A stretch of DNA of 64,000 nt from Aliarcobacter lanthieri (lineage in GTDB: Bacteria > Campylobacterota > Campylobacteria > Campylobacterales > Arcobacteraceae): positions 124,001 to 188,000 of the forward strand of contig NZ_CP053839.1 of assembly GCF_013201625.1 (NCBI RefSeq), in the 5' to 3' direction. Shown here one piece after another: positions 17,804-23,835 of this stretch (positions are counted from its first letter, which is position 1; every line of letters begins with the position of its first letter). Made by a program: the position numbers and the translations under genes. The notes beneath the pieces are model-generated. The model ran no database searches. It was not told where the DNA came from and saw only the letters and a program-made list of their open reading frames with translations.

Positions 17804-19054
17804 ATGAAAGCAGATGTAATAGTTGGAATTCAATGGGGAGATGAAGGAAAAGGTAAGATAGTTGATATGCTTGCTCAAAAGTATGATATGGTTTGTCGAA
17901 GTCAAGGTGGACATAATGCTGGACATACTATTTGGGTTGATGGAGTAAGATATGCACTACAATTAATTCCTTCAGGGATTTTAAATCCAAAGGCTATAAA
18001 TATTATTGGAAATGGAGTTGTTGTATCTCCTGAAAGTATTTTAAGAGAGATGAGTCAATTTGACAGCTTAGAAGGAAGAATATATATCTCTGATAAAGCA
18101 CATTTGAACTTACAATTTCATGCTTTAATTGATCAAGCAAAAGAGAGATTAAAAGGTGATAGAGCTATTGGAACAACAGGAAAAGGAATAGGTCCTACTT
18201 ATGCTGAAAAAATTAGTAGAAGTGGATTCAGGGTTGGAGAACTTTTAAATCCAACAAAGCTTTGTGATGATATTTTGGATTATTTTGCACAAAATAAAGA
18301 AATTTTTGATGTTTTAGAAATGAAAACTCCTAAAAAAGATGACCTTCTAAAAGAGATTGAAGAGTATAGTGTAAAATTAAAACCGTATATTACAAATACA
18401 ACAAATATGGTTTGGAAAGCTCTTGAAGAAAATAAAAGAGTTTTACTTGAAGGTGCTCAAGGAACATTATTAGATATTGATCATGGAACATACCCTTATG
18501 TTACAAGTTCAAGTACTGTTAGTGCTGGTGCTTGTACTGGTTTAGGACTTAATCCAAAAGATATTGGAGAAGTTATTGGGATTGTAAAAGCTTATTGTAC
18601 AAGAGTTGGTAATGGACCATTTCCTACAGAAGATTTTACTCAAGATGGTATAAGATTGGGTGAAGTTGGTAAAGAATTTGGAACAATAACTGGAAGAAAA
18701 AGAAGATGTGGTTGGTTTGATGCAGTTGCTGTAAGATATGCAAGTAGATTGAATGGTTGTGATAAGTTAGCATTAATGAAACTTGATGTTTTAGATGGAT
18801 TTCAAAAAATCAAAGTTTGTGTAGCTTATGAACTTAATGGAGAAAGAATAGATTATATGCCATCAGATATGGAAAATGTAACTGCAATTTATGAAGAGAT
18901 TGATGGTTGGGATAGTGTAGTTGGAGTTAGAAAATATGAAGATCTACCAATAAATGCAAAAAAATATATAGAGAAAATTGAAGAGATAACTTCTGTAAAA
19001 GTTGGCATAGTTTCAACTTCACCAGAAAGAGCAGACACAATAATAAGAGGATAG
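17804..19054 (+). CDS. purA: Adenylosuccinate synthetase
   Basis: Joins IMP and aspartate using GTP, the first committed step to AMP. The 416-residue protein shows the family's hallmarks: [14 protein letters not shown] (8-21), GGHNAGHTI near 37, [14 protein letters not shown] near 125, [22 protein letters not shown] near 220 and the loop [11 protein letters not shown] near 298. It starts one base after the hisZ stop and is followed four bases later by the DUF507 gene, so it is in the middle of the operon. Confidence 0.98.
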
Positions 19055-19058
19055 TACT

Positions 19059-19610
19059 ATGAGATTAAGATTACATCACACGCCTTATCTAGCAAGAAGA
19101 ATTACAAGAGATTTGCTAACTTGTGATTTTGTAGAAGTAAGAAAAGAAAAAAATAGTATTGAAGCTGAAATCGAAAGAATTTTAGATGAAGATATAGAGA
19201 AAGAACAGGCTTTAGATGAAAAAGTACAAGAAATTTTAGATGCACAAGAAGAAGAAATTGAGTATCTAAATGCAGATAGACGGCAACTTTTTTGGATGAC
19301 TAAAAAAAGGCTTGCAAATGATTTTGGAGTAATCTTAAACAACGAGGATAGATTTTCTGATATTTCTCACAAAATATTAGATTATCTATGGGAGGAGGAC
19401 TATATACACTTTAGATGTTCAGATAATCAAATTAAAAATGTTATATTTGGTTCGATGGACGATTTTATAAAAGGATTTGAAAAAGCAGACAGTGAGGTTT
19501 TAGCTAAGCTTAAAAACTATAAAAGAAAACTAATTCCTGGAACAGAAGATTATGATTTGGTATATCATAGACTTTATGAAGAAGAGTTAATAAAAAGAGG
19601 ATTAATTTAA
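19059..19610 (+). CDS. DUF507 family protein (two tandem repeats)
   Basis: Cytoplasmic protein of unknown function, 183 residues, highly charged and largely helical. It opens MRLRLHHTPYLARRITRDLL, the usual DUF507 start. The family's roughly 90-residue unit appears twice: residues 1-90 and then RLANDFGVILNNEDRFSDISHKILDYLWEEDYIHF onwards. An acidic coiled coil (about 35-75) links the halves. In this lineage it is a constant neighbour of carA. The stop overlaps the carA ATG by one base, which suggests stoichiometric production with CarA. No catalytic motif is visible. Confidence 0.85.
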   Translation: MRLRLHHTPYLARRITRDLLTCDFVEVRKEKNSIEAEIERILDEDIEKEQALDEKVQEILDAQEEEIEYLNADRRQLFWMTKKRLANDFGVILNNEDRFSDISHKILDYLWEEDYIHFRCSDNQIKNVIFGSMDDFIKGFEKADSEVLAKLKNYKRKLIPGTEDYDLVYHRLYEEELIKRGLI

Positions 19611-20707
19611 TGCAAAAAGTATATATTTATTTAGAAAATGGAATATTTTTAGAGGCAAAATCTTTTGGTGCAGATACGACTGCAATTGGAAAATTAGTTT
19701 ACAATAATGCAACTTTTGGACATCAAGAAATAATTACTGATCCATCAAACACAGGTTTATTTATCAACTTTACACCTGTAGAAGTAGGAAACGTAGGAGC
19801 AAATAGTGCTGATTTTGAAAGTACAAAAGCTTATGCGAAAGGGATACTTGTAAGAACTTACCATAGTGAGTATTCAAATTATAGAGCAGAGCAAAGTTTA
19901 GGAGATTTTTTAAAAGAGCAAGGTGTTATAGGTATTTGTGATATTGATACAAGATATTTAACAAAAATTATTAGAGATGAAGGAAGTATGATGATGATTG
20001 CTTCAACTTTAATTTCTAATAAAGATGAATTGGCAAAAAAATTAAGTGAAGCAAAAAAATATGATGAAATAGATTTTGTAAGTGAAAACTCTGTAAAAGA
20101 GAGTTATATACATAAATCTGGTGCATGGAATCCTGATACACAAGAATATAATAAAGCAAGTATGAGTGATAAAAAAGTTTTAGTTTTAGATTTAGGTGCT
20201 AAAAAATCATTTTTAAATGAACTTGTAGAAGCTGAACTTGAAGTGGAAGTAGTTCCTTACTCTACAAAAGCAGATGATATTATAGCTAGATTTAAAAATA
20301 ATGAAATAGGTGGAGTTGTACTAAGTAGTGGTGCAGGAAACCCAAATATTTTAACTACATTAGTAAATGAAATCAAAAAAATAATTGATGCTAATATTCC
20401 TATTTTTGCTGTTGGTTTAGGACATTATATTGTAGCACTTGCAAATGGTATAAAAGTAGAAAAAATTAACTCTATAAAATATGGAAGTCACCCTATAAAA
20501 GGTGAAAGAACTGTTGAAATATATGGTATAAATACTGATTTTAAAATAGATGATAGCATAAAAAATATAGCAGATGTGACATATACAAAAGTATTTGATG
20601 ATAGTTTAGTAGCTTTAAAATATAAAAATAAAGATATTTTAAGTAGTGAATTTACTCCAGTATCAAACTCTCCAATCTATAAAGAGTTTGCAAATTCTGT
20701 AAAATAA
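19610..20707 (+). CDS. carA: Carbamoyl-phosphate synthase small subunit with degenerate glutaminase site
   Basis: CarA normally hydrolyses glutamine and feeds ammonia to CarB for arginine and pyrimidine synthesis. The 365-residue length and the N-terminal domain are normal (GHQEIITDPSNTG, VGNVGANSADFES, ICDIDTRYLTKIIRDEG). In the C-terminal class I amidotransferase domain the nucleophile elbow reads FAVGLGHYI (266-274), where active enzymes have the GICLGHQ pattern, so Gly269 replaces the catalytic Cys and Tyr273 the substrate-binding Gln. The QGHPEASPG-type His/Glu segment reads SSEFTPVSNSP (345-355), without His or Glu. The SNGPGDP loop is SSGAGNP. The frame is intact over its full length, so this is not simple pseudogene decay. 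It may be a structural or ammonia-using subunit. Confidence 0.88.
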   Translation: MQKVYIYLENGIFLEAKSFGADTTAIGKLVYNNATFGHQEIITDPSNTGLFINFTPVEVGNVGANSADFESTKAYAKGILVRTYHSEYSNYRAEQSLGDFLKEQGVIGICDIDTRYLTKIIRDEGSMMMIASTLISNKDELAKKLSEAKKYDEIDFVSENSVKESYIHKSGAWNPDTQEYNKASMSDKKVLVLDLGAKKSFLNELVEAELEVEVVPYSTKADDIIARFKNNEIGGVVLSSGAGNPNILTTLVNEIKKIIDANIPIFAVGLGHYIVALANGIKVEKINSIKYGSHPIKGERTVEIYGINTDFKIDDSIKNIADVTYTKVFDDSLVALKYKNKDILSSEFTPVSNSPIYKEFANSVK

Positions 20708-21823: not shown

Positions 21824-22714
21824 TTACTTCTTTTTATCAATATCTAGTTTTTTTCTCTTTTCCCAAAGAGACTTTCTTGATATACCTAATCTTTTAGATA
21901 ATTCAGTATCTGGATACCTGTTTTGATAAGTGGTTACCATCATTTTAACATAATCATTAATAGACATTATTTGAGTATTATCAAGAGTTTTATTGTCATT
22001 GTTAAACACTAATTTTTTATATATAAAATCTTCATCTGGTTCTAATGTACATATTACACAATTTCTATCTGCTATTTGCTTTAAAAGTTGATCTTTTATA
22101 TTCTTTTTTAGAACATGATAATCTGTAAGATATATTATAGATTTATCATTGATTGTTGAAAGTTGTTTTTGCCATGTAGAAGAGTTCAAAGAAATAAATT
22201 TTATAGGTAAATCTAGTTTATTTGACATTTCAAAAACAAGTTTGTCTGCGTAAGTTTGGAAATTTGTTTCTATTAGAAGAGGAAAAGATAAAGGCAGTAA
22301 AACATCACTTGTATCTATACTACTCATTGTAAAATTATAATAGTCTCTTAAAACTTGAAGTTCTCTTCTCATACTTCTACAATCTTTATAATGATAGATT
22401 TTTCTTAAAAGTTCATCCATTAAAAATGGTTTCATCATATAATCTTTTGCACCATCTTTAATGGGATTTGTTACTGTTTCATCTGAGATATAAGATACTA
22501 GGAGAAGTATAATTGAATTAGAAGCATATCTTTTTATAATACTTTTTGTAATTGCACTTGGAAGTGAAGTTGATAGTAAAACAATATCATAATCTTTTGT
22601 AAGATTTTCAATATTTACTTGTTCAACATAATCACAGCTATGTCCATCATCAAGTAATCTTGATACAATCTTTTGTGCTAAATAAATTTCATTTTCAATA
22701 ATTAATATATTCAT
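21824..22714 (-). CDS. Atypical orphan response regulator, HP1021 family
   Basis: The gene matches the HP1021 family of epsilonproteobacteria by position (beside ispDF and pgpA) and form. In Helicobacter this protein is an essential-type global regulator reported to act as a redox switch and at oriC; a role here is inference. From the ATG at 22714 (MNILIIENE) it has 296 residues. The receiver lacks the phosphoacceptor Asp: the expected site reads LLSTSLP with Ser48. The conserved Lys of MMKPF remains. The C-terminus has a Fis-like helix-turn-helix (DTELSKRLGISRKSLWEKRKKL). Cysteines at 27, near 110 and in RNCVIC may be redox sensors. The ATG overlaps the ispDF stop (ATGA); a TTG at 22726 is less likely. 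Confidence 0.85.
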   Translation of the reverse strand: MNILIIENEIYLAQKIVSRLLDDGHSCDYVEQVNIENLTKDYDIVLLSTSLPSAITKSIIKRYASNSIILLLVSYISDETVTNPIKDGAKDYMMKPFLMDELLRKIYHYKDCRSMRRELQVLRDYYNFTMSSIDTSDVLLPLSFPLLIETNFQTYADKLVFEMSNKLDLPIKFISLNSSTWQKQLSTINDKSIIYLTDYHVLKKNIKDQLLKQIADRNCVICTLEPDEDFIYKKLVFNNDNKTLDNTQIMSINDYVKMMVTTYQNRYPDTELSKRLGISRKSLWEKRKKLDIDKKK

Positions 22715-23835
22715 CTTTGTGTCCAATCATAATATTTTAGTGTAGCAATACTTTGTACTGCAACTCCTTCTGCTCTCCCTATAAAGCCAAGTTTCTCAGC
22801 AGTTGTTGCTTTTATATTTACAAATTGCTTTTCAAGTCTCAAAAGTTTTGCCATAGATGATTTAATTTCCATTTTAAATGGATTTATCTTTGGTTTTTGA
22901 GCAATTATTGTTACATCAATATTTACAATTTCATACCCAACATTATAAACAAAATTTATAATATGCTCTAAAAGTACTTTTGAATCTATATTTTTATATC
23001 GGTCATCTGTATCTGGAAAAAATTCTCCAATATCTCCAGCACCAATAGCACCTAAAATAGCATCTATAACAGAATGTATCAAAACATCTCCATCACTATG
23101 AGCTTTAAATCCAAATTCATATGGAAGTTTTATTCCTCCTAAAAACATTTCTTTGTTTTCTTCAAAAGCATGAATATCAAAACCAGTTCCTGTAAAAAAA
23201 TTGTTTACTGGTTTTGCTAAACAAGGAATCTCTTTAATCTCATCACCAAAAGTAATCTTTTTACTATCAATGCTACCTTTGATATATAGTACTTGCTCAC
23301 CAAGTTCTTTTATAGCAGTGCTTTCATCAGTAAATTCTTTAGAAGTTTTTAGAGCTTTTTTTAAAATTTCAGTATTTGATAATTGGGGAGTTTGTATAAG
23401 TTTTACTTGATCACGATTTATAGTATTTTGTTCAAATACAACTGTATCACTAACATCTAAAACAGGAACGATACAAGAAGCTTTATTTTTATTGTTTAAT
23501 AGATCTAAAACTATACTTTCTTTAATACAAGCTCTCGCTACATCACTTATCATTACATATTCAGTATCAACTTGTTTTAAAGCATTGTTTATAGAATTCT
23601 GTCTAGTATCTCCACCTTCAATAAAAATATAGTCATCTATAAAATTTTGCATATATCTTAGCTCATCTTTATGTGAAACAATAATTATTTTAGAGAAATT
23701 TGAGTAACCACTTAATCTTTTTGTAACATTTAACCACAATGGTTCATTCTCTATTCGTAACCACTGTTTTTTACACATTCTTTCAAATCTTGTAGAATTT
23801 CCAGCACATAAAATTACTAAGGTAACATCTATCAA
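22711..23835 (-). CDS. ispDF: Bifunctional IspD/IspF isoprenoid synthesis enzyme
   Basis: Fusion of 2-C-methyl-D-erythritol 4-phosphate cytidylyltransferase (IspD, residues 1-about 205) and 2-C-methyl-D-erythritol 2,4-cyclodiphosphate synthase (IspF, about 215-374). It supplies two steps of the MEP pathway. The IspD part shows VTLVILCAGNSTRF and KQWLRI, although the usual GxGxR is reduced to CAGNSTRF. The IspF part shows GTGFDIHAF, LGGIKLPYEFGFKAHSDGDVLIHSVIDAILGA with the metal ligands Asp, His and His, and AEKLGFIGRAEGVAV. The fusion is normal for Campylobacterota. The stop overlaps the HP1021-type gene. Confidence 0.95.
   Translation of the reverse strand: MIDVTLVILCAGNSTRFERMCKKQWLRIENEPLWLNVTKRLSGYSNFSKIIIVSHKDELRYMQNFIDDYIFIEGGDTRQNSINNALKQVDTEYVMISDVARACIKESIVLDLLNNKNKASCIVPVLDVSDTVVFEQNTINRDQVKLIQTPQLSNTEILKKALKTSKEFTDESTAIKELGEQVLYIKGSIDSKKITFGDEIKEIPCLAKPVNNFFTGTGFDIHAFEENKEMFLGGIKLPYEFGFKAHSDGDVLIHSVIDAILGAIGAGDIGEFFPDTDDRYKNIDSKVLLEHIINFVYNVGYEIVNIDVTIIAQKPKINPFKMEIKSSMAKLLRLEKQFVNIKATTAEKLGFIGRAEGVAVQSIATLKYYDWTQR

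Follow-up and report, generated by a model that had tools for sequence, protein, structure and literature searches.

A glutaminase-dead carbamoyl phosphate synthase small subunit is maintained across a group of Aliarcobacter species

The carA locus and its gene neighbors

The window, meaning the whole 64,000-nucleotide stretch of the Aliarcobacter lanthieri genome analyzed here, carries a carA gene that follows a purA-like gene and a DUF507 gene in one gene string (Table 1). Its translated reading frame is uninterrupted for 365 codons, as a sequence-only reading that preceded this work had claimed. The same reading placed the gene in its normal operon, and this part did not hold: there is no carAB operon, and carB lies about 681 kb from carA (genome positions 825501-828743 and 143610-144704, respectively) in a genome that forms one contig of 2,276,457 bases (2.28 Mb) and is 100% complete by the completeness tool's figure. 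The order purA-like, DUF507-like, carA is also found at loci L147 (genome G356) and L148 (G282), and a DUF507-like frame likewise lies upstream of the carA remnants of G361, G192, G282 and G356. A promoter and terminator scan returned counts not above those of shuffled sequence. Elsewhere in the window, an ORF at 22711-23835 on the reverse strand reads by eye as an IspD-IspF fusion, and PyrG keeps its glutaminase motifs (GICLGMQ and QFHPE), as had been claimed for it.

Table 1. Positions of carA, its parts and its upstream neighbors in the window
Feature	Position	Strand	Remarks
carA with inactivated glutaminase (pseudo-CarA, 365 aa)	19610..20707	+	ATG start; PF00988 and PF00117 matches
N-terminal CPSase_sm_chain domain of CarA (residues 7-129), the better conserved part	19628..19996	+	
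Class-I glutaminase-like domain of CarA (residues 191-365), predicted fold kept, catalytic residues gone	20180..20704	+	
CarA codon 269, GGT (Gly) where the catalytic Cys is expected	20414..20416	+	
What is left of the CarA His/Glu segment, FTPVSNS (residues 348-354), equivalents of E. coli 357-361 deleted	20651..20671	+	
DUF507 gene directly upstream of carA	19059..19610	+	Its stop and the carA start share one base
purA (name read by eye from the translation), upstream, same gene string as DUF507 and carA	17804..19054	+	

The window's CarA scores 127.4 bits on PF00988, well enough to identify the N-terminal domain at a cut-off of 27. On PF00117 it scores 58.6 bits (cut-off 22.8) through a partial match covering only profile positions 1-123 of 190, where an active relative's CarA reaches 148.5 bits. 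The NCBIfam model for the ‘glutamine-hydrolyzing’ small subunit, TIGR01368, rejects it at 268.1 bits against a cut-off of 307.35 (active relative, 444.7), and NF009475, ‘carbamoyl phosphate synthase small subunit’, accepts it at 244.7 against 221. An AlphaFold model (19 sequences; pLDDT 85.9, pTM 0.87) can be superposed on E. coli CarA (360-361 residues, Z about 45, rmsd 1.9-2.0, 29% identity) and on human CPS1 (Z about 39). A G359F mutant of the E. coli protein comes first among the structural matches but is tied with the others. The model thus predicts that the complete CarA fold, including the class-I glutaminase-type domain, is retained.

Loss of the glutaminase site and maintenance of the protein

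Thirteen Aliarcobacter genomes, the window's own included, carry the dead form of CarA and are called the group here. We aligned their CarAs with E. coli K-12 CarA and 15 active-type relatives. E. coli CarA has the Cys of its CLGHQ motif at position 269, so the numbering coincides with that of the Aliarcobacter codon, and in this alignment C269 is replaced by Gly in 13 of 13 group genomes. The other two members of the Cys-His-Glu triad are gone from all 13 as well: H353 has become T, S or N and E355 has become I, V, T or P (C269G, H353T and E355V in the window's copy). Further changes across the group are Q351 to E or G, N240 to S or D, P242 to A and D244 to N, substitution of Q310 and H312, and deletion of G292 and of S357-H361; the SNGPGDP of active CarA accordingly reads SSGAGNP in the window. 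Cys269 and His353 are essential CarA residues (PMC6245113), and the other losses include glutamine-site positions. The deepest group member, G004, retains Gln273, yet it too lacks the triad and the 357-361 loop. Residues 1-150 contain 59 sites that are invariant across E. coli and the 15 active relatives, of which 35 are unchanged in all 13 group CarAs; for residues 190-382 the figure is 26 of 81.

These results confirm that the CarA is glutaminase-dead. The motifs first reported for it (SSGAGNP, FAVGLGHYI and SSEFTPVSNSP) are letter-exact, and the claim that Gly269 occupies the place of the catalytic Cys, with neither His nor Glu further on, is upheld by alignment with relatives and with E. 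coli CarA. An assembly or frameshift artefact was considered and rejected, as identical residues stand in the open frames of 12 other species.

Within the genus, 31 genomes (the window's own included) divide into 13 with the dead form, 17 with the active form (AICLGHQ, HHPEASPGP) and one without a CarA match, G025, which is only 54% complete. Motif comparison covered 41 of 49 loci from the genus, the family and the order, giving 13 dead and 28 active; left out were G036, G032, G035, G054, G057, G059, G052 and G043, and the CarAs of G036 and G032 proved active-type in a separate alignment. The nearest named relative is Aliarcobacter vitoriensis, at 88% CarA identity. The dead form is also found in the named A. 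vitoriensis, A. cryaerophilus gv. crypticus and A. vandammei, which are the same as genomes G027, G022 and G012 and are not independent evidence. Members of the group are associated with hosts and sewage. A CarB tree built from 40 genomes unites all 13 with 100/100 support, so a single loss accounts for them. The closest active relative of the group is unresolved on this tree, where the outgroup genomes nest among the active same-genus genomes. Because the losses are common to 13 species, the dead CarA is more than chance or the decay of a single strain.

Identity comparisons over a paired CarA and CarB set of 28 genomes, which excludes G010, where only half a CarB is present, and G016, which lacks a full one, indicate that CarA has changed fast. 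Mean identity within the group is 70.9% for CarA and 92.1% for CarB; between the group and 15 active same-genus genomes it is 53.1% and 85.1%, and active CarAs are 92.9% identical to one another. The change is uneven along the protein, with mean within-group identity at 77% for residues 1-150 versus 66% for residues 188-365, and identity to active same-genus CarA at 62% in the N-terminal domain versus 45% in the glutaminase half, which evolves faster in the group than in active relatives.

The protein is nonetheless maintained under purifying selection. In nine chosen within-group pairs, dN/dS (NG86) is 0.079-0.206 for the whole of CarA and 0.103-0.251 for its glutaminase half, and these low values of 0.08-0.21 for the protein as a whole argue that it is kept; CarB gives 0.05-0.11 in the same nine pairs, and four active pairs give 0.018-0.094 for CarA. 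No carA frame is broken among the 13 group genomes. The suggestion, made from the window alone, that the N-terminal domain is well conserved and the protein maintained agrees with the dN/dS values and with the 77% identity of residues 1-150.

CarB, other glutaminases and the rest of the phylum

CarB is present as a single copy of 1080 aa that passes both CarB models and lies far above the cut-offs for the CPS (carbamoyl phosphate synthase) large subunit. We checked 20 positions in its active sites and loops. It matches E. coli at 18 of them; positions 237 and 754 differ from E. coli but carry the residue common to every relative in the set. When changes on the stem of the group are polarized with 12 outgroup genomes, 25 are fixed in CarB, 23 under a stricter rule (36 without an outgroup). 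With domain limits taken from a review (PMC6245113), 17 of the 23 map to the carboxyphosphate domain and 5 to the oligomerization domain, with a single change in the carbamoyl-phosphate domain and none in the allosteric domain. Control changes, meaning those that only 1 or 2 of the 27 genomes outside the group show at a site where the rest agree, divide 31/31/28/25 over the same four domains (Fisher p = 3e-5 for the first domain and 6e-5 for the first two). The first two domains, with 22 of the 23 stem changes, are those touched by the small subunit. Judged from the domain limits alone, the pattern is what a single rebuilding of the CarA-CarB contact, frozen afterwards, would produce. Recent CarB changes inside the group divide 15/7/15/7 and show no bias, as would be expected if the stem changes accompanied the glutaminase loss. 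A simpler contrast, 25 stem changes on the group side versus 1 on the active side, was discarded as unfair, because the active same-genus genomes are not one group on the tree.

All 13 group genomes encode two PF02729 carbamoyltransferases, probably one aspartate and one ornithine carbamoyltransferase, so carbamoyl phosphate is still consumed. AmtB is present in one copy in 10 of the 13 and absent from the other 3, versus 1-4 copies in the 17 active-CarA genomes. This is the opposite of what a need for imported ammonium would lead one to expect; it fits an ammonia-rich habitat, and genome size is a confounder.

The sequence-only reading had offered a second functional CarA elsewhere as an alternative. 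No such CarA was found: PF00988, a profile that matches 14 of 14 control genomes, finds a single CarA in the one-contig genome. The case named there as refuting the idea, a second intact CarA with this copy decaying in strains, does not apply here either, this being the only CarA of the genome and the dead form being fixed in 13 species. A PF00117 search and reading by eye likewise revealed no spare CarA-like class-I glutamine amidotransferase (GATase) in this genome. The seven class-I enzymes present read by eye as TrpG/PabA, GuaA, PyrG, HisH, a second HisH-type, PurQ and CarA itself, and none lies near carB within the 5.2 kb examined there. The second HisH-type glutaminase (L035, G000:C1:849987-850574) neighbors a HisF-type gene and an ATP-pyrophosphatase-like ORF; read by eye, the region looks like a surface polysaccharide cluster. 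Class-I counts are 6 or 7 in the 12 group genomes that are at least 99% complete, 5 in the 13th (87% complete) and 5-9 in 17 active-CarA genomes; for relatives only counts were taken, individual identities being read only in the window's genome. The search was limited to class I (PF00988 and PF00117), which leaves class-II and amidase-type glutaminases outside its scope.

We also surveyed 397 Campylobacterota genomes with the pattern HHPExxxGP, which addresses the His/Glu segment only. The survey is blind to a lost Cys beside an intact HHPExxxGP, the 358 matching genomes were not inspected singly, and a match may fall outside carA. The pattern is missing from 39 genomes, 10 of which are the ten group members sampled. 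A full-length CarA that retains its Cys is present in 14 of the other 29, and 13 of these have a variant HPE segment, mostly QYHPE (12 have GICLGHQ and HPE, one has AICLGHQ and QYHPE, and one has GICLGHQ and is cut at a contig end). In three genomes only the N-terminal domain of CarA remains, about 147-148 aa long (L129 in G361, L130 in G192 and L147 in G356). All three short CarAs occupy the usual site, preceded by a DUF507-like gene, and each of these genomes encodes a full CarB at another location; those of G361 and G192 are each 148 aa, 93% identical and evolving at a dN/dS of 0.117, and the G356 copy is diverged. In G282 (L131/L148) a carA remnant with an internal stop lies beside the DUF507-like gene, with carB intact, and this carA was apparently caught in mid-decay.

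The remaining 11 motif-negative genomes have no PF00988 match at E 0.01. CarB is unbroken in 13 of the 15 genomes without a full CarA, namely G361, G192, G356, G282 and nine of the eleven CarA-negative ones. Of these nine genomes with CarB alone, five are drafts in 30 to 160 contigs, in which carA may fall in an assembly gap, and the others are nearly closed (G259, 2 contigs; G310, 1; G426, 1; G431, 3). In G426 (L166) and G431 (L167) the gene string reads pyrB-pyrC-carB without carA, with a CarB 44-45% identical to the local type, and this string may be a pyrimidine operon gained from elsewhere, with a CPS that lacks a glutaminase. Searches for CarA (E 0.01) and CarB (E 1e-50) both came back empty in two drafts that are 99% complete, G290 and G324, and it is conceivable that carbamoyl phosphate synthesis has been lost there entirely. 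Taken together, the three N-domain-only CarAs and the nine CarB-only genomes indicate that glutaminase loss recurs in the phylum. The CarA glutaminase has probably been lost several times and CarB outlasts it, subject to the possible gaps in the five drafts.

An ammonia-dependent synthase, its rivals and known systems

The best reading of these data, to which we give a probability of about 0.8, is an ammonia-dependent CPS with a non-catalytic, structural CarA; the activity itself, ammonia as the donor and CarA-CarB binding are all inferred. In this view, the glutaminase would have been lost once, in the ancestor of the Aliarcobacter group, and CarA kept since as a non-catalytic partner of CarB. 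CarB would make carbamoyl phosphate from bicarbonate, 2 ATP and free ammonia, while CarA may hold or stabilize the carboxyphosphate and oligomerization domains of CarB and so support its fold or oligomer. Ammonia might enter CarB directly or by way of CarA, whose old passage may lie open to solvent now that the 357-361 loop is gone. The reading fits because the dead form is fixed in 13 species and under purifying selection, CarB is intact with clustered stem changes, and losses are repeated across the phylum. It had already been proposed for the window, as an ammonia-dependent CPS with a structural small subunit; comparison supports that proposal, with ammonia dependence itself still inferred.

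Several observations count against this reading. The group has fewer AmtB copies, and the glutaminase half of its CarA evolves faster. The E. coli large subunit does make carbamoyl phosphate from ammonia, and very high ammonia is required in E. coli; the same source (PMC6245113) treats glutamine as the relevant nitrogen donor in E. coli and says so of ‘all bacterial CPSases’. Insertions in carA of C. jejuni, a species with an active CarA, were attenuated in the mouse gut, like carB insertions (PMC5438104), which suggests that CarB and external ammonia are insufficient there.

Of the rival explanations, the one that survives best, though we consider it unlikely, is that CarB alone uses ammonia and the pseudo-CarA is conserved for an unrelated role. 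CarB occurs without detectable CarA in 9 of the 15 re-examined genomes, so CarA seems dispensable in some lineages, and the fast divergence of the glutaminase half from active same-genus CarA is also in its favor. Against it, the CarB stem changes lie in CarA-contacting domains, and three other genomes retain only the N-domain of CarA, both of which suggest that contact still matters. It is somewhat less likely still that another glutaminase, whether a different amidotransferase or a member of an unsearched class, feeds ammonia to CarB and leaves the enzyme glutamine-dependent in the cell. Our class-I search would not have seen class-II or amidase-type enzymes, whose ammonia could diffuse to CarB; however, the group's class-I counts (5-7) show no extra enzyme relative to active genomes, and the window genome's other GATases read as standard biosynthetic enzymes, with none around carB. 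Least likely of all, the carbamoyl phosphate pathway could be decaying or bypassed (by carbamate kinase, or by pyrimidine and arginine uptake) and CarA on its way out, for which the faster glutaminase half and the G282 remnant with its stop can be cited, but dN/dS is well below 1 in both CarA halves, the frames are open in all 13, CarB is strongly constrained and both carbamoyltransferases are retained.

The ammonia-dependent reading can be extended, and we put the odds of the extension slightly below even. Here Campylobacterota would have reverted CPS to free ammonia repeatedly, and the successive forms would coexist as a folded dead subunit in Aliarcobacter, an N-domain-only subunit, and CarB alone; with the 357-361 loop deleted, Aliarcobacter CarA would form an open ammonia intake leading into the CarB tunnel, and CarB would have been adjusted at the interface.

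Overall, the ammonia-dependent reading with a structural CarA is well supported comparatively, with no enzymology behind it. It suggests, by inference, that the group makes its arginine and pyrimidine precursor from free ammonia, like the vertebrate urea-cycle enzyme. If true, the system would be a natural counter-example to glutamine-only bacterial CPS and a bacterial parallel of vertebrate CPS1, and would bear on nitrogen-metabolism models and on the blocking of CPS by glutamine analogues in these species. The natural variant series raises the question of what a chemistry-free CarA does for CarB, and a ‘small subunit’ annotation can mask a switch of nitrogen source. In the open-access literature searched (subscription journals and preprints lay outside its scope), no title or opening abstract dealt with an inactive bacterial CarA or with CPS in Arcobacter or Aliarcobacter. 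The idea of a pseudo-glutaminase CPS is already known from vertebrate CPS1; within the literature searched, the bacterial case appears to be new.

Among known systems, E. coli CarAB (CPS II; PDB 1JDB, 1C30, 1M6V) shares the two-domain small subunit and the same large subunit. Aliarcobacter CarA differs in lacking Cys269, His353, Glu355, Gln310 and His312 and in the deletion of 357-361, and two of the same sites are altered in the E. coli small-subunit mutants C269S (1C30) and G359F (1M6V), so named in the PDB titles. Vertebrate CPS1 (CPS I; PDB 5DOT, 6UEL) retains a CarA-like region, with residues 33-377 of 5DOT aligning to Aliarcobacter CarA, and ammonia is its sole nitrogen donor (PMC6022934). 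The catalytic Cys is replaced in the CPS1 glutaminase-like region, and a glutaminase-like domain without catalytic residues is the CPS I-like feature present in Aliarcobacter CarA. CPS1 is one fused mitochondrial chain and requires N-acetylglutamate, a defining feature of CPS I (PMC6022934), whereas Aliarcobacter has two separate bacterial subunits whose site eroded independently. By analogy, and with ammonia use inferred, the Aliarcobacter CPS would work like a CPS I, a class in which we do not claim membership for it. A plant CPS is termed ammonia-dependent in a figure legend of a nodule paper (PMC6246699). The 41-kDa carbamoyl phosphate synthetase of Methanobrevibacter smithii is a dimer of synthetase domains (PMC6022934) and is therefore inferred to lack a glutaminase; that enzyme is archaeal and minimal, whereas Aliarcobacter pairs a full-length CarB with its pseudo-CarA.
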